Positions 2 through 12,485 of a stretch of 12,485 bases of DNA are shown here, one piece after another. Positions within the stretch are counted from its first letter, which is position 1. Each line of letters begins with the position of its first letter. Both the position numbers and the translations under genes were made by a program. This DNA comes from Holophaga sp. Lineage in GTDB: Bacteria > Acidobacteriota > Holophagae > Holophagales > Holophagaceae. The DNA lies in assembly GCA_030691225.1 (NCBI GenBank), contig JAUYES010000024.1, forward strand, positions 1-12,485, given 5' to 3'. The notes under the pieces were generated by a model. It was given only the letters and a program-made list of their open reading frames with translations. It made no database searches and had not been told where the DNA came from.

Positions 2-3000
2 GCGGTCCTTACTCGGGATATCTCACAATATAATTTCACCATTACCACAGCCCGTCCGAGCGAGGATGGATCAGCCTGGCTATTCAGATCCGCTTGGTCT
101 CCTCGAGTTTCACGTCCAAGAATTCAACATCCTGACGATCCCCCGCCAGAGGTGTTGCCGGATGAAGGAACTCAGACCGTCGTAATTCAGGGCGGGCTTG
201 TTTACGCGCTGTCAGGCGGCAATACGATCATTCGGAATCAGTGGGGTGATCGGGTCCAGGTGAGCAATGCACCTGATGGCAGTAGCCAGACGATTACGAA
301 CGCCGCAGGACAAATGGTTTTGCTTCAAGTGTCAGAAAGCAACTGGACAGTGTCGAACAATCTGGGACTGGCAACGGTATCGGGGACTTTGGAAACGGGT
401 GTCCCAGCGAGAGGTCTGGTTGGAACGATTTCCAACGGCATCCAACAGCCGAGCAGGTTCGAGTGGGGGACTGGTACATCGCCCTTGAAGTTCACAGCGA
501 GCAACGGGTCAACCGTGAGCTTGACCTACAACGCAACGAGTTATAACGCGTTTCGTGAGGCGTTTTCAGGTGGGAATGTTAATACCGGCCTAGGGGTAGA
601 TGCGGGCGGTGTTCTAAGGGACCAATGGCGAGGGTATGAGCCCGTCAAGAAAAATCTCACTTACACCATTGGGGTTCCCCAAGGAGCCGTGAGTAGCATT
701 TCTGTAAGCGGTGGCTCTGGCGAGCCTGGGTACGTTACTACTTTTGATCGCCGATATCCCGAACCGACTGGTTACGACGAGAACACACAGACCATCACTT
801 GGGCCTCAAGGAATTACCAGGTGACCATACGAACCACCAGCAGCGAAGGCAAGACTCGATTCAGTCGTTTGTTTTTAGCGCAGCCGAGTCCAGGTGGGGA
901 ATACGGCGCTGCTGCCTGGCCTCTTCGAGGCAAGGCGAGCCAGAGCCTGTCCAGCCAGAAGCAGATGATGCTCTTCGCGCTCGGGACCGTCGTTAGGGAA
1001 GAGTCCGGCTACGATAACGGTGCCGAAATCATCACGCAACGGACCTCCATGGAAGGCTGGAGTCTCCTGAATCGCGCGAATCCGAATGGCGTGGTTGAGG
1101 GTGAGGTTGGCTTGAAACCCACGCCAACTAGGGTTCGCACGGAGTACCCCCAAGACCTTGGCCCGACGATGGTGCGAGAATTGACTGGCTGGGATGCGCT
1201 TACCAATACCTATACGAATTCAAAAGAGACCACGCTTCCGCCCGACCAGGGGGCATCCGCGCAGGATGCATCTGCGCTCGCTTGGCGGGGCGAGAGTATC
1301 GGGGCTTCCAGCCAAGTGACGGGCTTTATTGAACGAACAGGGAATAGCCAGGCAACCTGGAACTCAACCTTGCTGCGAGCTCAGATCAATACCAGCAGTT
1401 CCAGCGTGGCTGGGTCGGATTACGTGAATGAACGAGGGGTTCCTTCCGTTGATTTAGGAACCAAGACGTACGGCTACGACACCAAGGGCCGCACAACGAG
1501 TGTTTCTGGAGTGTCCGGGGGGATTACCGGCACGACTACGAACACCTATGGAACCGGTCCGGAGGTAACGGATGTTAGCCGCAGCATGACGGGAACCGAA
1601 CCGGCGGGTGAAGTGGGCGAAGCCTATAGCTGGAATGGCCCCTTCCGCACCGGCGTCCGGATTAAGCCGGATCCACGCTGGTCCACCGAAGACCGGGATA
1701 GTTTGGGGCGATTGACGAGGATGGTCAGTCCCGAGGGTGTCACCACCCGAACCCAATACGACAGCCTCGGGCGCGTCACGGTCAGCAGCAGGGACGCTGT
1801 TGCTGGGGCAGGTGCCATTCAGACTCAAACGGAGTACGCTCCGGATGGTCGAACCCTGCTGCAGACCGTCAGTGGATCTGGCATAGCCACCCGTAAGACG
1901 CGAACCAAACTCGATGGGGCGGGTCGTCCGATCGCCGTTACCGTGGATGCAGACACTTCTATCGCCCGCACGGTTTTCACAACATACGACGGATTTGGCA
2001 ACAAAGTGTTTGAAAGCCTCCCGCTGCGGAAGGCCAGTCTGGAGCCAGGGGACCCAAGAACCACCTACGAGTACGAAGCAGACGGCTTCCTAAAATCCGT
2101 CACCAATGCGCGTGGCTTCATTACCACCTATAGCCGCCCAACCCGGGGAAACCTCGATGGCGTGGATGGCTTTCTATCCACCGCGAGCAATACGAAGGGG
2201 ACCACCACCAGCCTGAAGGATCTCATGGGGCAGGTCCGTCGGGTGAAGGATGTAACGGGGGTAATTGCTCGCCTGAGTTATGACGCTTATGGGCATTTGA
2301 CCCGTGTCGAGCGTGCAGGGCAGGTGCGCAAGTACACCTACAACGCGGTCGGCTGGCTTCTTGATCAGGAGCAGCCCGAGGAAGGCATAACCACCTACGG
2401 CCGGCACACATTCTCGGGGACACCCCTCAGGGCCTCCAAGGGGGGCGGCACCGTCAACACCTATGTGCATACCTCGGGTTCCGATGTAGGGCTTCCATCG
2501 AGCGTTTCCACCAGTGGAGCGGGTACCAGTGTGGACCGGTCCTATGCCTACACCAACCGCCGTTTGACCAGCATGAGCGAGACTCAGAATGGGAGCAGCG
2601 TTTGGGAAAGCTATGGCTACGACAGCCTAGGGCGGAATATCTCCAAGTTCACCAGCGATGGGTCTCAGGGCTTCACGGTGAGCCGAAACCTGGATGCGGC
2701 CGGGAATGTGATTGATCTCCACTATCCCCAAGGCGCGGGGAAAGGTGATCGCATCAGTCGGAACAGCTTGGACGAGTTCGGGCGCGCCTACTCGATGGCT
2801 TTTGGAAGTCCCAGCGGTCCTGGGGGCATCGCTACCATGAAATATGACGCCTGGGGCCAAGATCAAGATTTGCTGATGTACGCCAACGATACATTCACCT
2901 TCTTTGGCCGGAATGCTTTCCAGGAGCTAAGTCGCGTCATTCATTACCAGACCGGATGGAACGCGGTGGAGGATGCCTGGCTGACATGGTCTGCAGATGG

Positions 3001-4618
3001 GTTATTGACGGACCGCGGAAGTGACCACTTTGAATACGATGCTCTCGGGCGCCTGAACCTGAGCCGAGTCTCTGGCCCTGATGGCTCCCGCGTGCAGCAG
3101 AACTTTGCCTACGATGTGTGGGGCAACCGGACCTCAACCGTATCTACCGCCCTGGCCGGGGGACTCCCGGAGGAGGCTGCGAATTATGCAATGAGCTACG
3201 GTAGCGATAACCGGATTCCGAACTTCACGGCTGCGGGGGCCAATACTGGAGCGATTTACGATGGCCTCGGGCGCTTGACTCAGGTGAACGCCATCCCTGG
3301 CCAGGAAAACAGCCGGACCTCATGGACCTATGATGGCATGGGGCGAGTGATCGCCCAGGGGGGCGCCAGGGCGGAATATTCCGAATCCTACCTGCTGGAT
3401 GGATCCGGTCTGCGGTTTCGCCGGAACAAGGCAGACGGCAGCCGGGAATACGTTGTCTATGGATTCAACCGTGAACCCCTGAGTCGCTTCCTCGCGCCGG
3501 CCGCGGGAGGACTGCTCTGGAAAGGAGACATGGTCTATGCCTTCGGCCAGCTCGTTATGGAGGACAAGCCCTCGGGCCGCACGTACCAGCAGGCGGACCA
3601 GGTGGGCACGCCGACGATCCTGACTGACGCCAGTGGTGTGGTCACGGGACGCCAGAAGGCCTTGCCCTTCGGAGAGCGGATGTCCGGCGTGGTTGGCATG
3701 AGCGCACGGCGCTACACGAACCACGAGGATGGCCCACAATTCCCGATTTACATGCAGGCCCGGATGTACCTGCCCACCTACGGTCGTTTTGCCGCGCCAG
3801 ACCCGGCTTATGACCACAGCTCAGACGGCCTGAATCTGTATTCCTACTGCAGCAATAACCCAGTCACTCGGACCGACCCTGATGGGATGCGGGATATTTC
3901 GGCCGGAGGTAGTGGGCACCCGGGGAGTACCCAATACCTCCATGAACCAATCAGTAATTGGATGGATGAAGATGAGTCATATGATCCTTGGATCGTGGCC
4001 GGGATGGCTGGCGGTGGGGGATCCGTGTTTAACCTTTTCTCTCCCATCGAAAGGCCGGTTTATAGTGAGACGACGGCTGCGTCGTCGAAAACAGCACAAG
4101 GGGTCGCTGGAAAGGTGAGTCGAAAATCTTCGCCTAGTCAGCCTATTAGACTTGTAAACCTTGGTAATAATATAATTTTTGTTCTTCTCGGTATTGAAAA
4201 TGAGGAGCAAGTTTTGAATGCAGTTCGAATAGCTTTGCAATCTCCAATTGTGCAAGAGGCTCATCGTAGAGGTCAGGCCAAACAGAAGAGGCCACTGTAT
4301 GTAAGAGCCACGAGAAACGCGGGTAAATTTAACGCAGCTCTTTATGACCCATGGGATAATAGTATTAACATTAATCCAAATGGAACATTTTATCTTCCAA
4401 CCGAAAAGGGCCCCACCCCAACCTCTCTAGATGTTATTTTCGCCCATGAAATGGGACATCAAGACGGGACGATAGATGGTCCAAGTGTAGCGATGATGGA
4501 AAACGTAAACGGAATAGAAAATCAGTACCGAGTATGGTTAGGAATTCCATTGCGTACTTCGTATTTAGGCGGATTTTTTACCCCGACACAAAGTGCTACG
4601 GTAATTGTCGTTGAATAA
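2..4618 (+). CDS. Rhs/YD-repeat polymorphic toxin with C-terminal metalloprotease-like tip (5' partial)
   Basis: The reading frame is open to the left edge, so the GTG at 152 is probably internal and the true start lies outside. The body has many YD-type repeats (YDSLGRVT, YDAYGHLT, YDALGRLN, YDGLGRLT, YDGMGRVI), then the DQVGTPTILTDASG segment and the Rhs core end GRFAAPDPAY...LNLYSYCSNNP...DPDGM at about 3800-3889. In known Rhs proteins such repeats form a hollow shell around a C-terminal toxin released by self-cleavage near the DPxG motif. Here the tip is about 242 residues. It contains FAHEMGH (HExxH, zinc metalloprotease signature, H and E codons from 4445), followed by ENQYRVWLGIPLRTSY, which resembles the segment after HExxH in M91/NleD-like Rhs tips. 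The family assignment is from memory. From about 4130 the DNA becomes AT-rich (17 of 60 bases G/C in 4141-4200, against 39 of 60 in 3481-3540), suggesting an exchanged tip. Export route is unknown. Confidence 0.9.
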   Translation, partial: AVLTRDISQYNFTITTARPSEDGSAWLFRSAWSPRVSRPRIQHPDDPPPEVLPDEGTQTVVIQGGLVYALSGGNTIIRNQWGDRVQVSNAPDGSSQTITNAAGQMVLLQVSESNWTVSNNLGLATVSGTLETGVPARGLVGTISNGIQQPSRFEWGTGTSPLKFTASNGSTVSLTYNATSYNAFREAFSGGNVNTGLGVDAGGVLRDQWRGYEPVKKNLTYTIGVPQGAVSSISVSGGSGEPGYVTTFDRRYPEPTGYDENTQTITWASRNYQVTIRTTSSEGKTRFSRLFLAQPSPGGEYGAAAWPLRGKASQSLSSQKQMMLFALGTVVREESGYDNGAEIITQRTSMEGWSLLNRANPNGVVEGEVGLKPTPTRVRTEYPQDLGPTMVRELTGWDALTNTYTNSKETTLPPDQGASAQDASALAWRGESIGASSQVTGFIERTGNSQATWNSTLLRAQINTSSSSVAGSDYVNERGVPSVDLGTKTYGYDTKGRTTSVSGVSGGITGTTTNTYGTGPEVTDVSRSMTGTEPAGEVGEAYSWNGPFRTGVRIKPDPRWSTEDRDSLGRLTRMVSPEGVTTRTQYDSLGRVTVSSRDAVAGAGAIQTQTEYAPDGRTLLQTVSGSGIATRKTRTKLDGAGRPIAVTVDADTSIARTVFTTYDGFGNKVFESLPLRKASLEPGDPRTTYEYEADGFLKSVTNARGFITTYSRPTRGNLDGVDGFLSTASNTKGTTTSLKDLMGQVRRVKDVTGVIARLSYDAYGHLTRVERAGQVRKYTYNAVGWLLDQEQPEEGITTYGRHTFSGTPLRASKGGGTVNTYVHTSGSDVGLPSSVSTSGAGTSVDRSYAYTNRRLTSMSETQNGSSVWESYGYDSLGRNISKFTSDGSQGFTVSRNLDAAGNVIDLHYPQGAGKGDRISRNSLDEFGRAYSMAFGSPSGPGGIATMKYDAWGQDQDLLMYANDTFTFFGRNAFQELSRVIHYQTGWNAVEDAWLTWSADGLLTDRGSDHFEYDALGRLNLSRVSGPDGSRVQQNFAYDVWGNRTSTVSTALAGGLPEEAANYAMSYGSDNRIPNFTAAGANTGAIYDGLGRLTQVNAIPGQENSRTSWTYDGMGRVIAQGGARAEYSESYLLDGSGLRFRRNKADGSREYVVYGFNREPLSRFLAPAAGGLLWKGDMVYAFGQLVMEDKPSGRTYQQADQVGTPTILTDASGVVTGRQKALPFGERMSGVVGMSARRYTNHEDGPQFPIYMQARMYLPTYGRFAAPDPAYDHSSDGLNLYSYCSNNPVTRTDPDGMRDISAGGSGHPGSTQYLHEPISNWMDEDESYDPWIVAGMAGGGGSVFNLFSPIERPVYSETTAASSKTAQGVAGKVSRKSSPSQPIRLVNLGNNIIFVLLGIENEEQVLNAVRIALQSPIVQEAHRRGQAKQKRPLYVRATRNAGKFNAALYDPWDNSININPNGTFYLPTEKGPTPTSLDVIFAHEMGHQDGTIDGPSVAMMENVNGIENQYRVWLGIPLRTSYLGGFFTPTQSATVIVVE

Positions 4619-4639: not shown

Positions 4640-5029
4640 ATGAACTATCGTTCTAGTGTTTTATCGGGAATTGTCTTTATGACAACCCTTTTGCCTATTT
4701 ATGCAGAAGGCAAAAATATGATTATGTGGTATATGCCATTACGGGTGGAAACGTTTGCGGCTGTAACAATGGAGGATATGGAAACCAGTGGTGCGATTAA
4801 ATACATTATAAAAAAACAAGAATACGTTCGTGAATTGATGACTATAATTACACGTGCAAAAAAAACAAAAATCAATAAAGTGCGAGACGGCAGAATTCGA
4901 GTAAAACTGTGCTATGAGAATATTACTTACTATATTGATGCTGAAGGTAATTTTATGAATTCGAATAGAGAATTTGGACAAATAAATACAAGTAAATTTT
5001 CAAAAATCATAGAGAAATTTGCGAAATAA
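4640..5029 (+). CDS. Putative immunity protein for the Rhs tip, with signal peptide
   Basis: A 129-residue protein begins 21 bp after the rhs stop, with a good ribosome binding site (GAGGTGA at 4629-4635, 4 nt before ATG). Residues 1-22 look like a Sec signal peptide: Arg4, a hydrophobic stretch, and a plausible cleavage after PIYA. The mature part is lysine-rich and mixed alpha/beta in appearance, with no motif I recognise. It shares the low GC content of the toxin tip and differs from the GC-rich genes around it. The position directly downstream of an Rhs tip, the small size and the shared composition are the usual signs of a cognate immunity gene. The signal peptide suggests it works in the periplasm or at the envelope. 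The immunity role is inferred from context only; it could instead be an unrelated small exported protein. Confidence 0.7.
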   Translation: MNYRSSVLSGIVFMTTLLPIYAEGKNMIMWYMPLRVETFAAVTMEDMETSGAIKYIIKKQEYVRELMTIITRAKKTKINKVRDGRIRVKLCYENITYYIDAEGNFMNSNREFGQINTSKFSKIIEKFAK

Positions 5030-5809
5030 TGTGATGTTTATCTAAATAAATCACAAGAAAGCGATTTCGCTGAATGGGTTTTAGTAAAAGTCACCCTTTA
5101 TAACGATGGTTCTAACTGATTCAAATTTGGGGTAACGGCTGGTCTTTGGATTGCTCAAGTGTTGCAATTTCAATGTTTCCATTGTCGAAGCTGACTAATC
5201 GACGTATTTCAATAATTCGACTTTGTTTTGGGATAGGAGTTGTAGCTGCTTTTTTTTCAACCTTTAGGGGTGTCTTGGCTCTAGAAACAGTAAGTATTTC
5301 GTAGGTGGCGGGACCCGTGAGATTGGATGGGTCGGCGCGGCGATGCCTACCGGTGAAATGCTTACTGTTTGGACGATTCGCATCAAGTCCCCTCTTGCCC
5401 CGGGACCGCATGCTTTTCTGGTGGGTGGGAGAGATCTCGAGTTCCTCCCCTTCGTCGTGAAATAAACGGACTCATCCCGCCCTCGTGGTTACCTTGGCCG
5501 AGCGAACTTGAAAGATTGGATCTTGCCTTTCAGTCTTCGCCGCCTTACCTTCTCCTCACCGACACGACGCCAGGATCCCACACATGAGGAGACCTGGATT
5601 TCCACAGGGGACATGCTCGATAAGCGCCCCGCGGATGGCTGATCCGATACCTTTCGTCGGTGTTTAAAATCTGGGTGGAATCGGCACCCCTTCTTCCATC
5701 ACGGAAGTCGAGCGTTCCTCGCAAGTCTGGAATTTCTGGACTGCGAACCTGACCTGTGAGCCCAGGCCAGCATGGACCTTCGCCCCCGTGATGGATTTGA
5801 GGGTGTTCC
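5030..5809. other. Gene-poor stretch between the rhs module and the AAA+ operon
   Basis: No convincing gene was found. Composition moves from AT-rich (left, continuing the toxin cassette) to GC-rich (right). A 96-codon minus-strand frame (5121-5411) and a 72-codon plus-strand frame (5369-5587) exist, but neither has a ribosome binding site or recognisable motif. Structured DNA is present: a small AT-rich hairpin at 5031-5054 (GTGA/TCAC and TTTAT/ATAAA, loop CTAA, 2-nt bulge) just after the immunity gene, the large stem-loop at 5285-5370, and a hairpin at 5719-5746 (TCGC-A-AGTC against GACT-GCGA). No T-run follows the first hairpin, so it is not a canonical intrinsic terminator. The promoter of the downstream operon must lie in or before this stretch, but I see no clear -35/-10 pair. 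Confidence 0.6.
5285..5370. repeat. Large imperfect inverted repeat / stem-loop (86 bp)
   Basis: AAACAGTAAGTATTTC (5285-5300) pairs with GAAATGCTTACTGTTT (5355-5370) along 16 positions, with one T.G wobble. Further in, GTAGG (5301-5305) can pair with CCTAC (5346-5350) after a bulge on the right arm, and GACCC (5312-5316) pairs with GGGTC (5329-5333) as an apical hairpin. The outer stem is AT-rich and the inner part GC-rich. No flanking target duplication is visible. It could be a structured RNA, a miniature element or a folded boundary; the sequence alone does not decide, nor does it show which strand is used. Confidence 0.6.
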
Positions 5810-7024
5810 ATGTCCGACGAAGCATTGTTTTCCGGCCACGCCCGGCGAGGGCGGTCTTCCGCCTCGTCCCCAGAGAAGCCCCACAAAGACCCCCTTACGA
5901 TGCGGTGGGTACAGGAAGCGATGGTGCTGGCCTTCGCCACCGGTGGGGCCTCCGTCATGCAAGAAGAGTTGGCAGCCACTCTCGAAGCCAACGGGCTACT
6001 GAAACCCCTTGGACTCGAAGCGCCCAAGCAGCCGCCCGAATGGTATTCCCTGCTGGTCCACCACGCCGATGACCTTGATGAGTTCTCGCCAGAAAGCTGC
6101 CCTCCGGGTGAGCTGCCCTTGGACACCTCGCTGCCTTGGAAGGCCGTACGCCTGCTGCAAGGCCACGCACCGATCCGTGAGTGTTTCCGCGCCCTCATCG
6201 AAAGCAACGATCCGATTTTCACAGCATTGTTTGGAGCGGCTTGGCACGCGAAGCACGACTCCCCGCGCATGAAGCTTCAGACCGCGCACACCTGCGCGAC
6301 CATTGTGGAACAGGAACTCCGGCGCTCGTTGGTGGGCCAGTCCGAGACCGTGGTGGCACTGAAGCGGATGGCTTTTGAATTGGAACTGAGGCGTGGTACC
6401 AAGGCGCCCCCGGCGACGGCTCTGTTTCTTGGCCCTCCCGGATGCGGCAAGAGCCTGGCGGCGCGGCGGTTCGCGGAAGCACTCTCCCTGGCAGCCAATG
6501 CCACGCAGGCGGAACAGCGCCACCTGATGGAGGTGGAGATGACGCAGCATGTGCAGTGGAGCAGCACGGGAGACCTCATCGGGGATGGGGGCCGGCAGGG
6601 GATCATCACTGCCTTCGTGGCCAAGCATCCCAATGCCCTGATCATCTGCAATGAATTTGAAAAAGCACACAGGAAGGTCTTGGAATCCTTCCTGCCCGTG
6701 CTGGATCAGGGTTTCCTGCCTCTTCAGGGGGGTGTGAAAGTGGATTTCCGGAATGCGGTTTTCGTTTTTACATCGAACCTCGGTTCGGAATTCTGGAACC
6801 GCCCCGCTTCGCCCGAGGAAGCCTCTTTGCAGGTGGATCCCATGGACCTCCTGAGCCTGGCGGAAACACCGGACGAGCGCTCGGAATGGTACAAGACCCC
6901 AGTTCCCATGGAACTGCTCAGCCGCCTCGGAAAGGGCCCCGTGGTGCTCTTTCGGCGCCACCTGGGCCATCACCTGCTCGAAAAAGTCGATCGCACGTGC
7001 CGCCTGAACCTGGAGGTGCTGTGA
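5810..7024 (+). CDS. Clp/HSP100-type AAA+ ATPase, single module with unusual Walker B
   Basis: A 404-residue protein starting at ATG 5810 after GAGGG (5799-5803). Residues 1-165 match nothing I recognise. Residues 165-385 form an AAA+ module of the ClpA/ClpB D2 type: RRSLVGQSETVV before the nucleotide site, Walker A GPPGCGKS (208-215), Walker-B region ALIICNEFEKAH (276-287), sensor 1 VFVFTSNLGS (317-326), and ELLSRLG (368-374), where Arg372 matches the arginine finger of the FLNRID motif. Two oddities stand out. The usual Walker B Asp is Asn281 (AAT), although Glu282 is kept. Only about 30 residues follow the arginine finger, so the usual C-terminal lid with sensor 2 is missing or vestigial. 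HSP100 proteins unfold substrates as hexamers; whether this one hydrolyses ATP is open. The stop overlaps the next start (TGATG), so it is the first gene of an operon. Confidence 0.85.
   Translation: MSDEALFSGHARRGRSSASSPEKPHKDPLTMRWVQEAMVLAFATGGASVMQEELAATLEANGLLKPLGLEAPKQPPEWYSLLVHHADDLDEFSPESCPPGELPLDTSLPWKAVRLLQGHAPIRECFRALIESNDPIFTALFGAAWHAKHDSPRMKLQTAHTCATIVEQELRRSLVGQSETVVALKRMAFELELRRGTKAPPATALFLGPPGCGKSLAARRFAEALSLAANATQAEQRHLMEVEMTQHVQWSSTGDLIGDGGRQGIITAFVAKHPNALIICNEFEKAHRKVLESFLPVLDQGFLPLQGGVKVDFRNAVFVFTSNLGSEFWNRPASPEEASLQVDPMDLLSLAETPDERSEWYKTPVPMELLSRLGKGPVVLFRRHLGHHLLEKVDRTCRLNLEVL
7012..7018 (+). promoter_or_regulatory. Ribosome binding site that fixes the start of the AAA-M41 protease gene
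   Basis: GGAGGTG lies 5 nt before ATG 7024, inside the last codons of the upstream ATPase gene. The ATG shares its A with the upstream TGA stop, indicating translational coupling. This supports 7024 over the longer in-frame start at 6886, whose first 46 codons would only overlap the upstream gene. Confidence 0.8.
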
Positions 7025-9141
7025 TGGAAACCAAGGCCTTTTCCCATTCCGGGTTCTGCTTCGCGCTGAAGGGCGAAGTGCTTCCGGGCCTTGTGTTGAC
7101 GCATCTTGTCGGCAAGGATTTGCGCACGGCTGAACGCCTGCTGGACGGTTTCTTTCTGGACCTGATGATGGTGGCCCAGGACCGCTTCGGGGATCAGATT
7201 CAGCAGGCGCCTGAGCCTTTCGGATTCATGGTGGAAGGCGATCCGAAGCTGCGTCAGAGGCTGAAAGAGGCCCTGCGGGAAGTGCGAAGCATGACCTACC
7301 TGGTGACCCGGAATCCCTTGGTGGAAGTGCTGATCCGCCGCCTCCTGCCCTCGGGCGAGGATGGGTTCCAGGTGGTGGATTCCACGGAGAAACTGCGCAA
7401 CCTCCCGCCCGGGGGATTGGTGCTGCTCGATGCGCTGGACCTTTCGTGGGAATCGCCGTTTCCATTTCCAACCGGTCTGGACCACATGGTGGTGCGGACC
7501 CTGGTGGATGCAGGGGCTTCCCAAGAAGCCGAATTCTGGCTCCGGGAGCAATTTGTTCCCATCCAGGTGCACCCACGGTATGGGTTCGGTAAGCACCAGA
7601 TCGTGGCAGAGAAGGCGTTGCTGGAAGTGCTCGAGCTGGCGCGCTTCTCCCGCTATTTCGAGCGGTGCCGCTCGGCGCATCTGCGCTGGCGCACACATCT
7701 GGAAGTGGATTATGTGCCCGGAACCTTGAACGTCCAGGCGACGCTTTGCTTCGACGGTGAGGATCGCGTGCTGCGTTCTGCGGATCTCAAGCGGGATATC
7801 CCCTGGGCGCAAATCCCCGACCTTCGGTTTTCCGATGTCCTAGGCCTGCAGTCCGCCAAGGAGCGGCTCCAGGAATACCTCGATTGGTTGAAAGATCCCA
7901 GAGGGGAACCGGGCATCCAGGCCTGTGTGTTGTTCGGCCCTCCCGGAACCGGAAAAACCCATGCCTGTTTGGCCACCGCCGGAGAAGCACAGGTGCCCTG
8001 CATTGTGATGGGGGGAAGCGAATTCTTGAACCAGTGGTACGGCGAAACGGAAAGGATCATTCGGGAAACGTTTTCAGCGATGCAGCTGTACGATGCCGCT
8101 GTGCTGGTAATCGACGAATTCGATTCGATCGCTTGGCGCCGGGATCAGAGCAACGAATGGCGGGCCCAGGATCAAGCCCAAGTCGTGGGTGAGCTGCTGC
8201 GCAGCGTCGACAAGCTGCGAAAGGGACCCGGCCGCGTGCTTTTGTTGGCCACGACCAACCAATACGAACGCCTCGACCCCGCCCTGGTCCGCAGCATGCG
8301 GATGGGAGATCACCTTCACCTTGGACTGCCCTCGGCGGAGGATCGCCGGGCCATGCTTCAGGGGTTGTTGAGGGACCTGCTGGAAACCGCTGAACGAAAT
8401 GAAGCCGTGGCGATGACTACAGGATTGAGTCCTGCTGATTTGACCGAACTAGTGGCCCGGGCCAGGAAGTTGGCCGCACGCAAATCGGAAACATTTTCGT
8501 TTGTGCATCTTCGTGCTGCGGTCTTCGAGCGCCGCCACGGCGAACTAGAAGGCAGTGTGCGGATGGATCAGGTCACAAAACGTCGAGTCGCTTTCCACGA
8601 AGCAGGCCATGCCCTCGTGGCTTTCCATTTGCTGGGTCCTGACCGCATCGAGCACCTGTCTGTGATTCCGGCGGCCTCCGGAACCCTAGGCACGATGTTT
8701 CAACGGCGCTCCGAAACGGTGGACCTGATGGATCGGCGCACCGTGGAGCACCAAATGGCGATGCTGCTGGCAGGACGCGTTGCGGAAGGCTTCAGCCATC
8801 CCGAAACAGGTCCCTCCCAAGGAGCTGAAAACGATCTCCAGGAAGCCACCCGCCTGGCCCAGTTCGCCATCGGCGCGTGGGGCCTGGACCCGGAATTCCC
8901 CCTGCTATCCATGGAGGCACTGCCCATCAGTCTTCAACACGAGCTCTCATCCCAATTCCTCGGGCGGATCCAGCATTGGATTCAGGCGGCGGAGGCCCTC
9001 GCGAGGGTCGAACTCACCCGTCACCGGGAACAACTCAAGGCCCTTGCGCTGCGCCTAGCGGAAGCCGAAACCCTCCATCGCCCGGATCTGATCGCGATAC
9101 TTGGAGCTCCCGAGGCCACCACCCATGAGGTGACATCATGA
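7024..9141 (+). CDS. Soluble FtsH-like AAA + M41 metalloprotease with a new N-terminal domain
   Basis: This 705-residue protein is FtsH-like in its C-terminal two thirds. The AAA module has FSDVLGLQSAKERL (269-282), Walker A GPPGTGKT (305-312), Walker B VLVIDEFDS (360-368), sensor 1 ATTN (409-412) and DPALVRSMR (418-426). The M41 protease part has FHEAGHALV (524-532; zinc ligands His525, His529, catalytic Glu526) and GAENDLQEAT (600-609), where Asp604 is the expected third ligand. Active-site residues are therefore intact. Unlike FtsH, it has no membrane segment; residues 1-265 are a soluble region I do not recognise. The pore-loop region reads NQWYGETE, closer to the Cdc48/Vps4/katanin type than to the FtsH Phe-Val-Gly loop, and of the FtsH GRFDR arginine pair only the first (Arg426) seems kept. 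It is probably a cytosolic ATP-dependent protease. It sits between two coupled genes. Confidence 0.9.
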   Translation: METKAFSHSGFCFALKGEVLPGLVLTHLVGKDLRTAERLLDGFFLDLMMVAQDRFGDQIQQAPEPFGFMVEGDPKLRQRLKEALREVRSMTYLVTRNPLVEVLIRRLLPSGEDGFQVVDSTEKLRNLPPGGLVLLDALDLSWESPFPFPTGLDHMVVRTLVDAGASQEAEFWLREQFVPIQVHPRYGFGKHQIVAEKALLEVLELARFSRYFERCRSAHLRWRTHLEVDYVPGTLNVQATLCFDGEDRVLRSADLKRDIPWAQIPDLRFSDVLGLQSAKERLQEYLDWLKDPRGEPGIQACVLFGPPGTGKTHACLATAGEAQVPCIVMGGSEFLNQWYGETERIIRETFSAMQLYDAAVLVIDEFDSIAWRRDQSNEWRAQDQAQVVGELLRSVDKLRKGPGRVLLLATTNQYERLDPALVRSMRMGDHLHLGLPSAEDRRAMLQGLLRDLLETAERNEAVAMTTGLSPADLTELVARARKLAARKSETFSFVHLRAAVFERRHGELEGSVRMDQVTKRRVAFHEAGHALVAFHLLGPDRIEHLSVIPAASGTLGTMFQRRSETVDLMDRRTVEHQMAMLLAGRVAEGFSHPETGPSQGAENDLQEATRLAQFAIGAWGLDPEFPLLSMEALPISLQHELSSQFLGRIQHWIQAAEALARVELTRHREQLKALALRLAEAETLHRPDLIAILGAPEATTHEVTS
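9127..9133 (+). promoter_or_regulatory. Ribosome binding site of the third operon gene
   Basis: GAGGTGA ends 4 nt before ATG 9138. The ATG overlaps the protease stop as ATGA, so the third gene is translationally coupled to the protease. Confidence 0.75.
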
Positions 9142-9611
9142 CCCTGGACGTTGCCATGCACGATCTAGCTCGGGCCCTGTTGGCGGTGGGCACGCCCCCG
9201 GCTGAGGTTCTAGAGCTCCTTATCGGACAGGCCTGGACCGCGGTGCTGATCACATGCCGTCCTACTCCCCCTCTTCTCTCAGAAATCCTCACTGAAATGG
9301 CAAAGGAACTCGATACCAACCGTTTCCGGCCACGTGTGGCCCGGATGGCCCTGGAGTCTGCGGGGATCGATCCGCTCCTCCTGGCGCTGCATGCCGATCG
9401 GATATGCAAAAAAGGCGATCCGCTGGTCTTGGCGAAAATCCTTGCCCGAGGTTTGGGTGTTCCGGAGGCCATGGTGAAGCGCATCTCCACTGGGTGGTGG
9501 ACACCCTCTGTATTCTTCCCCCTGCCATTTCCTGATCTTGGCGTCGACCTGGAGGGGCTTTCGGATGAAGAAGCCCAGGCCTTGCGGGATGCCCTTGGCT
9601 CCGGTCAATAA
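9138..9611 (+). CDS. Small protein of unknown function, third gene of the AAA/protease operon
   Basis: A 157-residue protein that I do not recognise. Residues 1-115 look mainly alpha-helical, rich in Leu and Ala, with several amphipathic stretches. A Trp/Phe/Pro-rich segment follows (GWWTPSVFFPLPFPDLG, 119-135), then an acidic tail helix (LSDEEAQALRDAL). There is no signal peptide, and no stretch looks long enough to be a membrane segment. The ATGA overlap with the protease gene and the strong ribosome binding site make co-expression near certain. Plausible roles are an adaptor, substrate-delivery factor or substrate of the protease, by analogy with adaptor genes next to AAA+ proteases, but nothing in the sequence proves any of these. 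It is the last gene of the operon; 109 bp without a gene follow. Confidence 0.8.
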   Translation: MTLDVAMHDLARALLAVGTPPAEVLELLIGQAWTAVLITCRPTPPLLSEILTEMAKELDTNRFRPRVARMALESAGIDPLLLALHADRICKKGDPLVLAKILARGLGVPEAMVKRISTGWWTPSVFFPLPFPDLGVDLEGLSDEEAQALRDALGSGQ

Positions 9612-9889: not shown

Positions 9890-11080
9890 ATGATCCCTTC
9901 CACGAATCTTTTGAAATTTTTCCCGATTTTCCTGATCCTTCTCTGCGCTTCGGCCGTTCGCGCCCAGCCCACGATTCAGGAGGTATGGGCACGACACGAC
10001 AAGTTCGTGATGACGGCGGCTTCAAAGCCCATCCCAGTTGATCCCTCCTGCGCCACCAAATTCAAGGGCAAGCGCGGGCAGACGGTGCGCGGATGGGACG
10101 TGGGATCCAGGAACGCGCCGGTAATCCTTACTTGGGGTGGTGGCCCTGGAGAGACCTATTCGCCCGAATACCTTGCCGCCTCCTACGCAAATCCCCTTGG
10201 CTATCGTCATGTCTCGATCGATCAGCCGGGGACCGGAGAATCCGCTTGGCTGTCCGGATGGAAGCCCGAGGACACGGTCGATGACGCAGCCGAATTCCTC
10301 AGGCTCCGCGAGATCAAAGCCCCGGTTATCGTGACCGGCTGGAGCTGGGGTTCCACCATGGCACTGCTCTTCGCACAGAGGCACCCAAACCTTGTCGGTG
10401 GGATTGTCGTAGGGGGCGTGTGGACGAACGCTCCTGAGGAAGTTGCCTATTACCTTGACGCGGCCGGACCACGGGCTTGGATGCCGGGGATATCCGAAGC
10501 CTTCCGTGCATTTTCAAACGGCCGGGGAACAGCCTGTGACCTTCACCAGGCCATCCGTGATGGACGTGGCGGAACAGCCCTTCCAAAGGCATACCAGGAG
10601 GCTGAATTTGATCAGTGCTTCCAGGGGCAAATCCCGCGAAAGCCACTCATCGAGCCAGTGGGGCGGACAGAGTCCAAGCCCGTGGACATGAAAACCGAAA
10701 CCGATGAAGGCGTGCGCTTTGCCTTTATCGAATCTGAGATGATGTGCCGGGGCCAGCGCGGCGAATGGAGACTGAGGCTGCGTTTTCCGGAGAGACTTTC
10801 GGAAGTTCCCCTCATCGTAATCCAGGGGCGTTATGACCAAGTCTGCAACCCCGAGGTGGCCCGAAGGGTATTCCGCGCATGGCCCGCCAAAAGAAAAGTG
10901 TTCGTGCCATTCAATGGCGGCCACTGGAACTTCTATGGCCCAGGCAAGGAGGAACGCACTCAGGTCGGCTTGAACCTGAACGCAGAACAAGAAGCACAAC
11001 TCGGAAAGGCTAACCGCCTGCATTTCGGGGATGCTGCTTTACTCGGTGGAGCCGCGGTGGATTGCCTAATCAACCCGTAG
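9890..11080 (+). CDS. Secreted alpha/beta hydrolase, proline iminopeptidase (S33)-like
   Basis: A 396-residue protein starting at ATG 9890, preceded by AGGTAGGTGA. Residues 1-25 are a Sec signal peptide (hydrophobic FFPIFLILLCA, cleavage after AVRA). The mature protein has the landmarks of S33 prolyl aminopeptidases: WGGGPG (82-87, oxyanion region), DQPGTGES (111-118), the nucleophile elbow GWSWGS (150-155, Ser152), the acid at GRYD (Asp316) and the base at GGH (His345). All three catalytic residues are in place. Several cysteines (54, 216, 243, 286, 319, 392) could form disulfides after export. It probably cleaves N-terminal proline from peptides or hydrolyses another small substrate in the periplasm; specificity cannot be read from sequence. 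It follows the broken small secreted gene by 3 bp and converges with the minus-strand genes to its right. Confidence 0.85.
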   Translation: MIPSTNLLKFFPIFLILLCASAVRAQPTIQEVWARHDKFVMTAASKPIPVDPSCATKFKGKRGQTVRGWDVGSRNAPVILTWGGGPGETYSPEYLAASYANPLGYRHVSIDQPGTGESAWLSGWKPEDTVDDAAEFLRLREIKAPVIVTGWSWGSTMALLFAQRHPNLVGGIVVGGVWTNAPEEVAYYLDAAGPRAWMPGISEAFRAFSNGRGTACDLHQAIRDGRGGTALPKAYQEAEFDQCFQGQIPRKPLIEPVGRTESKPVDMKTETDEGVRFAFIESEMMCRGQRGEWRLRLRFPERLSEVPLIVIQGRYDQVCNPEVARRVFRAWPAKRKVFVPFNGGHWNFYGPGKEERTQVGLNLNAEQEAQLGKANRLHFGDAALLGGAAVDCLINP

Positions 11081-11142: not shown

Positions 11143-11622
11143 CTATAGGCGATCAAAAATCCGGCCGACTTCAGCCAGATTGAATTGCAGGTCTTCGAGT
11201 GTGCTTTGGATCGCGGCAGCATGTTCCACAACAACATTGTGTTGGTGGTGAACCAAATCGCGCATGCACCGGATCGCGTCTTCAGCATAGGTAATGGGAT
11301 CACGATCACGAAGCGCTTCCGCAACGAAGCAGCCCTCCGCGTGTCCCTGAGCGGGGAAGCGTGAACACGCACAGCAGGGACCGCGTCCATCTGAATCAGG
11401 CCCTCCCCACTCGATGAGCCTTAAGGCCGACTGCATTCGTTGGGCACGAAGACCAAGCCGCATGAGTGATCGGCCATATTCGGTGATGCCACCCCCACGG
11501 CTGTCTTCTCCGCTCTCAAAGTCCTCTTCCACATGGCCTCCATTCTTCTGACCAGCCTGCACCGTCGGATTCGCGATGGGAGCCCGCGAAGTCCTAGGTG
11601 ACGAGGTTAAAAAGGTACCCAT
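11143..11622 (-). CDS. Small CCHC zinc-knuckle protein, mobile-element type
   Basis: Read from ATG 11622, this gives 159 residues and overlaps the preceding gene by 29 bp. A longer in-frame start at 11730 exists, but its extra residues lie inside the upstream gene and look like noise. The first 45 residues are low in structure. The core is LRLIEW (67-72), then C83-x2-C86-x7-H94-x3-C98, then a helical tail. Small proteins with an IEW segment followed by a CxxC...GHxxxC knuckle and an Ala/Leu helix are frequent in phages and other mobile DNA, mostly without known function (family memory, not a search). The knuckle probably binds one zinc ion. No strong ribosome binding site is visible, so translation may be coupled to the upstream gene. 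Confidence 0.6.
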   Translation of the reverse strand: MGTFLTSSPRTSRAPIANPTVQAGQKNGGHVEEDFESGEDSRGGGITEYGRSLMRLGLRAQRMQSALRLIEWGGPDSDGRGPCCACSRFPAQGHAEGCFVAEALRDRDPITYAEDAIRCMRDLVHHQHNVVVEHAAAIQSTLEDLQFNLAEVGRIFDRL

Positions 11623-12151
11623 GGTTGGCCGCTGCTTCAGCCCATGGAAGGATCTGATCTCTCGGCAAAGGAACAGCAAGGAAAACAGGTGCGTCGCTGA
11701 TCTGGTCCATGGGGCCGAATCCCCTGGCATCCAAAGAATGCAGCCTCAGTTGCGGCCCCTGTGCTCGGGCTTCCCGAAAGTCTTCAGGGCGATCCAGGAT
11801 GAAGATCAAGTTCATTCCACTGATGCAGGCCCAAAGTAGCTCATTCTCGAAAACCACAAATCCACTGATGCACTCCTGCCGGATGGTTTCGATTCGATTT
11901 GTCCTGGCATCGGAAGGTGGGTCTTCCCGCTCATCCCGAAGAAGCTCCTTCATTGTCCGCAGTCGTTGCAACTGGTCTGCGCGGGTCATTTTCTGCTGGG
12001 TCAACCAACGCCACAAGATGTCCCATCGGTCCTGTATTTCCTGCGCAATTCCTGGGGCCATCAGAACAGGGACTGGCCTTTGGTCAGCTCCAGGTGAAAC
12101 CTGGGGCTGCTTAGCGTAGTGGGGAACCGGCCATGGGGCGGTGTCCACCAT
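11594..12151 (-). CDS. Hypothetical protein in the mobile-type minus-strand operon
   Basis: I do not recognise this protein. From ATG 12151 it is 185 residues: a Pro-rich N-terminus (PWPVPHYAKQPQV), a Trp/Arg-rich helical part (EIQDRWDILWRWLTQQ), a charged region, a short hydrophobic stretch (ISGMNLIFILD) and a C-terminal part with PVFLAVPLPRDQILPW. G/C at third codon positions becomes high in this frame at about 12175 and drops in the upstream frame, which favours a start near 12151. An alternative start at 12244 has a perfect AGGAGG (12250-12255, minus strand) 5 nt ahead and would give 216 residues, but it would overlap the upstream gene by 134 bp with noise-like sequence. A frameshift joining this gene to the upstream one cannot be excluded. 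Confidence 0.6.
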   Translation of the reverse strand: MVDTAPWPVPHYAKQPQVSPGADQRPVPVLMAPGIAQEIQDRWDILWRWLTQQKMTRADQLQRLRTMKELLRDEREDPPSDARTNRIETIRQECISGFVVFENELLWACISGMNLIFILDRPEDFREARAQGPQLRLHSLDARGFGPMDQISDAPVFLAVPLPRDQILPWAEAAANHGYLFNLVT

Positions 12152-12485
12152 CAAGTTGTCGAATAATGTGATCCCACCGCCGCATGACGTCGTAGACCGT
12201 GAGTTTATTGGGGTCAACGGTGGTGCGCTGTTCGGTTGCGCCATGGAGTCCTCCTATACGCTCAAAAAATCGTTTTCCTGCGTACTCCGTACCGAGGCGC
12301 GCGCCTGGGAATCGGTTTCCGTTCGTATCCATCCAGCAAATGCCAACGGGGTGGCCATTGCGCCAAGTCGTGTAGGGCTCGAAGCCCCGTTTCTTCATTT
12401 CAATCAGGACCCCGCCCTTCCTGAAGCCTGCAGCGATAACGGCATCAATGGTTTCTCGCAGTAACTGTTTCTGCGGGACTTTCCC
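12111..12485 (-). CDS. Possible relaxase C-terminal fragment (partial at window edge)
   Basis: The frame is open to the right edge, so only the last 124 residues are seen. The part LRETIDAVIAAG...MKKRGFEPYTTWRNGHPVGI...RFPGARLGTEYAGKRF resembles a segment found after the nuclease domain of many MobA/VirD2-type relaxases: a helix beginning LR..I, a hydrophobic-helix-then-RGF/RGV strand, a G-x-x-x-G-I/F-x-F hairpin and a (G)S/A-x-LG-x-x-Y/F motif. The catalytic tyrosine and histidine triad would lie outside the window, so the assignment rests on this one segment. The similarity is recalled, not searched. If right, the sequence to the right is part of a plasmid or integrative element. The stop at 12111 overlaps the next gene by 41 bp. 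Confidence 0.45.
   Translation of the reverse strand, partial: GKVPQKQLLRETIDAVIAAGFRKGGVLIEMKKRGFEPYTTWRNGHPVGICWMDTNGNRFPGARLGTEYAGKRFFERIGGLHGATEQRTTVDPNKLTVYDVMRRWDHIIRQLDGGHRPMAGSPLR

Follow-up and report, generated by a model that had tools for sequence, protein, structure and literature searches.

An HSP100-type ATPase and a soluble AAA-M41 protease of Holophaga sp. appear to form one split two-ring protease

The known energy-dependent proteases are either HSP100 ATPases paired with ClpP or membrane proteins in which an AAA ring is linked to an M41 domain. FtsH has been called membrane-anchored (PMC9020784). FtsH-type MoxR-vWA ternary systems are presented as predicted conflict systems with two AAA domains per protein, the first of them an inactive FtsH-type domain (PMC7159879). 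The response-regulator protein RssB steers the AAA+ protease ClpXP as an adaptor in trans (PMC7226468). Here a three-gene operon is described from contig JAUYES010000024.1 of Holophaga sp. (assembly GCA_030691225.1, family Holophagaceae), which was analysed over its entire 12,485 nucleotides and is referred to as the window. The metagenome-assembled genome (MAG) from which it derives is fragmented (837 contigs, completeness 76%). Gene 1 encodes an HSP100-type ATPase, gene 2 a soluble protease with AAA and M41 domains and gene 3 a small protein (Table 1).

Genes 1 and 2 probably encode, with a likelihood that we put at about 70%, one cytosolic two-ring AAA+ metalloprotease whose first ATPase module is divided between the two genes. 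This reading of one tandem protease cut in its first module is based on the absence of a lid from gene 1 and on the fact that the best candidate for it lies in gene 2. The split two-ring protease appears to be an unusual cross of two well-known bacterial quality-control enzymes, occurring elsewhere also as a single fused protein. The three genes and the two stop-start overlaps (TGATG and ATGA) reported in a preliminary description of this DNA are confirmed in the sequence, and the codon-position GC of all three genes has the pattern usual in coding DNA. The same description gave good ribosome-binding sites to all three starts, which is true of gene 2 (GGAGGTG) and gene 3 (GAGGTGA), whereas the site of gene 1 (GAGGGTG) is weaker. 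The start of gene 1 is supported despite this, since M1 is the same in every row of the 39-row gene 1 alignment.

The best curated models for gene 1 are those of the second ATPase domain (D2) of ClpB, ClpA and ClpV, all matched far below their cut-offs, and its comparison with the HSP100 large subdomain gave an hhalign probability of 99.9 (E 1.5e-33). The HSP100 profile match ends right after VVLFRRH(L), and from where gene 1 stops the ClpB relative used for comparison has about 100 more residues. In the 64 homologues counted of the 65 tried (the distant P0203 and one patternless row were excluded from this census), 29-50 residues follow the Arg finger before the chain stops, and therefore gene 1 lacks the HSP100 C-terminal lid, which was found on none of the counted chains. 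With the second ATPase domain of ClpA, ClpB and ClpV gene 1 shares the large subdomain, Walker A, the catalytic Glu, sensor 1 and the Arg finger, the last being R372, a role that we assume from HSP100. The sensor-1 Asn is conserved, as are Walker A, Glu282 (39/39 rows) and the Arg finger. Gene 1 differs from HSP100 proteins in having one ATPase module, no lid on the same chain and no pore-loop aromatic, and its partner is an M41 protease and not ClpP or a disaggregation partner. No ClpP match was obtained among the nine window open reading frames (ORFs) scanned, the ClpP-binding loop itself not having been searched. As for the N-terminal domain, that of the single-chain relatives described below gave a suggestive match to Clp_N (76%) and that of gene 1 matched the single-chain one at 63%; direct profile comparison of the gene 1 domain with Clp_N gave no match.

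In gene 2 the approximately 262 residues ahead of the AAA module have no Pfam match. The AAA module lies immediately ahead of M41, both by Pfam in gene 2 and in the AlphaFold2 model of P0044, a protein in which both genes form one chain. Walker A, the Walker B Glu, the sensor-1 Asn, the Arg fingers and the zinc site are all kept, and pore-loop position 338 is aromatic in 38/38 rows (W 33, Y 4, F 1). The pore loop QWYGE resembles that of Vps4 and katanin, unlike the FVG of FtsH, and D604 is a candidate zinc ligand by analogy with FtsH. The preliminary description called this product a soluble FtsH-like protease without its anchor, and so it proved: AAA and M41 are both present, and no N-terminal transmembrane anchor of the FtsH kind was found by 19-residue hydropathy, the highest mean being 1.46 against 2.12-2.29 in three FtsH controls. 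With FtsH, i-AAA and m-AAA proteases gene 2 shares HEXGH with a distant Asp and the position of AAA directly before M41, but it has no membrane-like segment, is preceded by lid-like and receiver-like regions and falls outside the canonical clade. Its scores were 221.9 bits against the FtsH_fam equivalog model (cut-off 600) and 81.4 bits against the IteA/IetA model NF042959 (cut-off 510). A PADLOC match to IetA (E 2e-26) spans residues 299-501, in the AAA part; PADLOC matches are limited to AAA parts and look like general similarity.

The HSP100-type lid that gene 1 lacks is putatively supplied by the beginning of gene 2, an assignment reached through a chain of profile steps. In a two-profile comparison, gene 2 residues 14-268 aligned to the lid-REC-linker region of seven single-chain relatives over 239 columns with a score of 63.8 and a probability of 95%, whereas none of 50 column shuffles scored above 19.4 and two reversed controls scored about 16. 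The single-chain lid in turn falls on the ClpB D2 small domain in the global alignment, with DLDAR over YGAR, and residues 146-433 and 145-432 of the single chain of locus L062 match the ClpB and ClpA D2 models, respectively, into the lid. The AlphaFold2 model of P0044 has a mean predicted local distance difference test (pLDDT) of 77.9, and its residues 377-468 form a helix, two strands, a helix, a short helix, a long helix and a strand. In the model this order of elements fits that of the HSP100 lid. A few double-ring AAA proteins (Rix7, Drg1) cover both modules in the fold lists, with a root-mean-square deviation above 16.

Single-chain proteins of the order HSP100-REC-AAA-M41 were found in MAGs of Acidobacteriota, Myxococcota and "Deltaproteobacteria". 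The genome scan gave at least 21 loci. With a single-chain query both modules lie in one ORF at L024 (Thermoanaerobaculales), L025 (Myxococcota) and L026 (Deltaproteobacteria), L022 is a split pair and L027 has separate ClpB-like and FtsH-like genes. L062, L063 and L072 are further single-chain loci, L036, L038, L039 and L040 hold a shorter degenerate form, L041 is incomplete, and the remaining scanned loci gave mainly matches of the HSP100 part only, with none at L042. In L062, L063, L024, L025, L026 and L072 the order of domains is the same as in gene 1 followed by gene 2; these proteins differ in being unsplit, in having a different small partner gene and, at L025 and L026, in a recognisable receiver. 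Their pore-loop aromatic is retained (Y242, invariant in 7 rows). In the four degenerate proteins (774-824 residues read) the first Walker A reads GPPGVGKI and the second Walker B FLDGID, with HEAGH intact; from these motifs the motors look decayed and the protease motif retained. A similar gene of about 190 residues lies directly downstream of the single-chain protease at L062, L063, L024 and L072, and a second small gene upstream of it at L062, L063 and L024, the one of L063 being YbjN-like just below the cut-off.

The receiver-like domain is degenerate in the window. Pfam Response_reg gave no match to window positions 7201-7620, and of the acidic pair and the phospho-acceptor Asp expected of a receiver only D136 remains. 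At L025 and L026 the domain has VVDED and LDLS and matches Response_reg with E values of 1.4e-5 and 1.5e-6, below the gathering score. Whereas RssB acts in trans (PMC7226468), the receiver-like domain of gene 2 and the single chains forms part of the protease chain itself, and the domain of the window is decayed. Approximately 1 kb from the receiver-bearing protease gene of L026 there is a divergent GAF-HisKA-HATPase kinase gene (4686-6551), possibly encoding the cognate kinase.

That a Clp-type ATPase goes together with an AAA-M41 protease lacking its anchor, as the preliminary description had it, is borne out by the relatives. The two families run in parallel, with 65 gene 1 relatives and 58 gene 2 relatives among the best 120 rows of each search. 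From 65 gene 1 and 56 gene 2 rows 21 pairs were matched, and over 20 pairs the two distance matrices correlate with r = 0.972, whereas the highest value in 2000 permutations was 0.411; these 20 are the 21 less the partial P0043 and P0047, with the window pair added and the fusions P0044 and P0046 excluded. Gene 1 of the compared pairs is 41-89% identical to that of the window. The pair was read directly in L022 (the same locus as L065), L043 and L046, and that of genome G074 is identical in sequence to the L022 pair. Recurrence in the same order in distant genomes, which had been proposed as a check on all three genes, thus holds for the pair and not for the trio. At L043 (genome G017), just downstream of gene 2, a short ORF (12225-12503) resembles the C-terminal part of M41, the wider M41-like match there having an internal stop.

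In P0044 and P0046, moreover, the two genes are fused into a single chain at the gene 1/gene 2 junction. In the AAA-M41 tree all 20 split rows fall with these two fusions under one node (100/97), canonical FtsH forms a distinct clade (100/99), and the single chains L044 and L045 adjoin the split clade with modest support (87/75). As P0044 and P0046 sit apart within the split clade (94/92 and 85/91), the simplest reading, at moderate support, is that fusion followed the split, perhaps twice. This tree has 47 rows, is midpoint-rooted, contains long branches (L046, L045, P0061, L072) and uneven composition, and omits, by a motif and length filter, the FtsH of L008, L012, L018, L019, L027 and P0064-P0066 as well as the split row P0031. 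The mixed alignment used in the analysis (A6) was picked after placement tests; on checking, no row had more than 3 residues placed in the wrong half.

From these features we infer how the enzyme may work, including a trans lid, hexamers, a division of labour between the rings, the handling of substrate and a role for gene 3. Gene 1 would contribute the N-domain together with an ATP-binding large subdomain of HSP100 D2 type. Gene 2 would bring the lid of the gene 1 module, the decayed receiver, the FtsH-type AAA ring and the zinc protease M41, and through the overlap of stop and start both chains would be made together. Six chains of each could stack as an HSP100-like ring above an AAA-M41 ring. 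The lower ring, whose pore loop has kept its aromatic residue, would feed substrate to the M41 chamber, and the upper ring, having lost its own pore-loop aromatic, would serve mainly in substrate gating or selection. Gene 3 might be a lineage-specific regulator or client-delivery protein.

Several results weigh against a single split machine. The pairs were matched by equal length of the longest contig, which is a proxy for linkage, and at L043 and L046 the gene 1/gene 2 junction has small gaps, not overlaps. Direct profile comparison of the gene 2 N-terminus with the HSP100 small domain gave no match, gene 2 residues 1-60 against the single-chain lid alone reached only 9%, the HSP100 small domain alone did not match the single-chain lid, and the initial full-length local alignment of gene 2 with two single chains starts only at residue 225. 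The P0044 model has a predicted template modelling score of only 0.55, and its fold-search lists hold nearly all matches in the FtsH half, so that the lid half was hardly tested. The HSP100 (ATPase 1) tree separates split, single-chain and ClpB proteins into three groups whose order is not resolved, and it therefore gives no support for descent of gene 1 from a single chain. In addition, the Walker B Asp of gene 1 is substituted in 39/39 rows (position 281: N 30, E 6, H 3), whereas the fusion P0046 retains it, and the pore-loop aromatic is gone (DLIGDGGRQG in the window, LVGFEPSYQGARPG in L062). Because of these two losses the gene 1 ring may be a poor gripper of substrate; judging from its motifs it may bind and perhaps hydrolyse ATP, and may be a poor motor.

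The last two points are also what favours a different role for gene 1, namely as a regulatory or substrate-selecting cap that is no longer a motor, with the gene 2 ring alone driving the protease. This is compatible with the split machine, and we hold it as a tentative option at most, for Walker A, Glu282, the sensor-1 Asn and the Arg finger are conserved, which would be unusual in a dead ATPase. If the operon instead made two machines, gene 1 would be a minimal unfoldase or disaggregase of HSP100 type and would pass unfolded substrate to gene 2, a soluble AAA-M41 protease in its own right. The genes are indeed separate in most listed relatives, and each has a Walker A, a catalytic Glu and an Arg finger; however, the missing lid in the 64 counted rows and the fusions at the same junction set two complete machines back, the start of gene 2 also aligning to the lid-REC region of single chains, and we consider that arrangement unlikely. 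The coupling of a Clp ATPase to a protease, as first proposed, accordingly holds in that the two genes are linked, but these are probably not two complete machines. It is very improbable that an ordinary extra FtsH and an unrelated truncated ClpB fragment are adjacent by chance, which the fragmented state of the MAG could have suggested. Chance neighbours are rejected because of the mirror distances, and the recurrence of such diverged pairs, the order conserved in the loci read, the fusions and the placement outside canonical FtsH all speak against them.

As to the biological role, the pair could be a defence effector, that is, an anti-phage or abortive protease on mobile islands, which is also compatible with the split machine. 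The neighbours of three relatives point in this direction. L043 has DrmD- and DrmMI-like (DISARM-like) genes and a phage integrase, L065 has HsdR, HTH-M78 and DUF4411 genes and RadC, and the CRISPR locus at L072 (2988-14502) includes, besides the single-chain HSP100-AAA-M41 gene, a Cas6-RT-Cas1 fusion, Cas2, an NYN gene and an array of at least 20 repeat copies (two at 61%); moreover a TrwC-type relaxase is found near L046. The occurrence is also patchy, with near full-length gene 1 matches in 3/77 genomes of the family (G000, G074 and G017). These loci, however, are few and were picked by availability, with no background rate of defence genes behind them; no defence genes were recognised at L062, L024 and L026, where few ORFs were scanned; no relative was confirmed in viral contigs with the gene 1 profile; and the PADLOC matches noted above are of the general kind. 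Of the defence, stress or toxin-related role suggested in the preliminary description, defence is possible but unproven, and we regard it as less likely than not.

No description of an HSP100-M41 protein was found in the literature searched, most subscription journals being outside its scope, and the nearest system found is that of PMC7159879. The likeness consists of an FtsH-type AAA domain in an accessory system and of two AAA domains; the first module here is of HSP100 type, and the window pair differs from the FtsH ternary system in its first ATPase and its partners (PMC7159879). Neither MoxR nor vWA was matched among the nine window ORFs scanned, the contig ending at 12485. We see about even chances that these proteins represent an undescribed class of soluble AAA+ protease in which an HSP100 ring is stacked on an FtsH-type ring that has an M41 chamber, a built-in receiver for phospho-signals being ancestral. 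In Holophagaceae it would be an obligate two-chain enzyme in which a trans lid on the protease subunit completes the ATP site of the first ring, and it would have spread patchily with mobile and defence islands. A natural HSP100-FtsH hybrid, if true, would mean that ATPase rings and protease chambers of different families have recombined. Likewise, with the lid and the large subdomain of an AAA+ module on separate chains, lid-ring cooperation could be tested by mixing those chains, and a receiver within the chain would place a protease directly under two-component control, compared with RssB acting in trans.

With the gene 1 profile at 1e-33 matches were obtained in 6/396 genomes of the phylum sample (G017 lies outside it): pairs in G000, G012 and G074, single chains in G354 and G223 and a ClpB-like ORF in G265. 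The single-chain profile was near full-length in 3/297 genomes (G354, G223 and G109) among the matches listed, the others covering only approximately positions 650-1120 and being mostly housekeeping FtsH by length. The searches scored the top 4 (gene 1 profile) or top 2 (single-chain profile) candidates per genome, which makes absences soft. The pair of G012 is divergent and G017 also has two single chains, both genomes belonging to the family sample. Carriage by phage or plasmid was rejected: with the gene 1 profile alone, 0 of 48 candidate stretches in viral contigs were confirmed, and among plasmid records none reaches 80% coverage of the single-chain protein (199 match in part, the 15 listed ones all in the FtsH part).

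Table 1. Positions of the operon genes and their features in the window
Feature	Position	Strand	Remarks
Gene 1: N-terminal domain and HSP100 D2-type AAA+ large subdomain, lid absent	5810-7024	+	404 residues; AAA_2 E 6e-19 (Pfam)
Walker A, gene 1	6431-6454	+	GPPGCGKS, residues 208-215; census of 39 rows
Walker B, gene 1	6641-6667	+	IICNEFEKA; Asn in place of Asp, catalytic Glu282 retained
Arg finger, gene 1	6923-6925	+	R372 in SRLGKG, invariant in 39 rows
Stop-start overlap TGATG, genes 1/2	7022-7026	+	TGA 7022-7024, ATG 7024-7026; reads CTGGAGGTGCTGTGATGG
Gene 2: lid-like start, degenerate receiver-like domain, linker, FtsH-type AAA, M41 protease	7024-9141	+	705 residues
Putative HSP100 lid (missing from gene 1)	7024-7188	+	Gene 2 residues 1-55; indirect, via single-chain relatives
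R34, candidate sensor-2 Arg	7123-7125	+	GKDLR vs ClpB GARPL; D32 and R34 invariant in 38 rows
Degenerate receiver-like region	7285-7518	+	Gene 2 residues 88-165; D136 invariant in 38 rows; by alignment to single chains
FtsH-type AAA module, pore loop QWYGE	7810-8493	+	Residues 263-490; PF00004 E 7e-28
Peptidase M41 domain	8563-9093	+	Residues 514-690; PF01434 E 6e-27
HEAGH zinc motif	8596-8610	+	Residues 525-529; HEAGH in 36/38 rows, HESGH in 2/38
D604, candidate third zinc ligand	8833-8835	+	Invariant in 38 rows
Overlap ATGA, genes 2/3	9138-9141	+	ATG 9138-9140, TGA 9139-9141; reads CATCATGACC
Gene 3: orphan small protein, probably helical, candidate lineage-specific partner	9138-9611	+	157 residues; 17 rows including itself

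Gene 3 is most readily understood as a recent partner confined to one subclade. Its 16 other homologues are 68-87% identical, and no match was found in Pfam, NCBIfam, PADLOC or PHROGs. Matched by equal size of the carrying contig, these homologues occur with gene 1 in three cases and with gene 2 in two. A tblastn search with five family members (E up to 1) over 74 loci gave a convincing match only in the window's own locus, and the conserved adaptor that the preliminary description had envisaged is thus not borne out. Its helical nature fared better, the AlphaFold2 model being all helix, but that model is weak (pLDDT 64.4). A relationship to the small partners of the single chains was rejected in the absence of a profile match, and profile comparisons with the N-domains and gene 2 gave none either.

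On the right of the operon, where mobile-type genes had been proposed, an alpha/beta hydrolase (Pfam) is encoded at 9890-11080, and the three ORFs tried within 11143-12485 have no Pfam or PHROGs match, so that the proposal is not supported there. A putative Rhs gene on the left was identified by reading its translation, and its C-terminal part contains HEMGH. Directly after it comes an AT-rich orphan ORF (4640-5029; GC 0.29-0.35 by codon position), a candidate immunity gene by position only. Elsewhere, a receiver-asparaginase ORF was seen at L072 (474-2102), and L073 (G192:C6, 6301-10453) has a solo, soluble-looking AAA-M41 protein of 453 residues, next to which a DnaJ-domain protein and a vWA protein are encoded; a NACHT/AAA_16-like ATPase is encoded at 773-3310.

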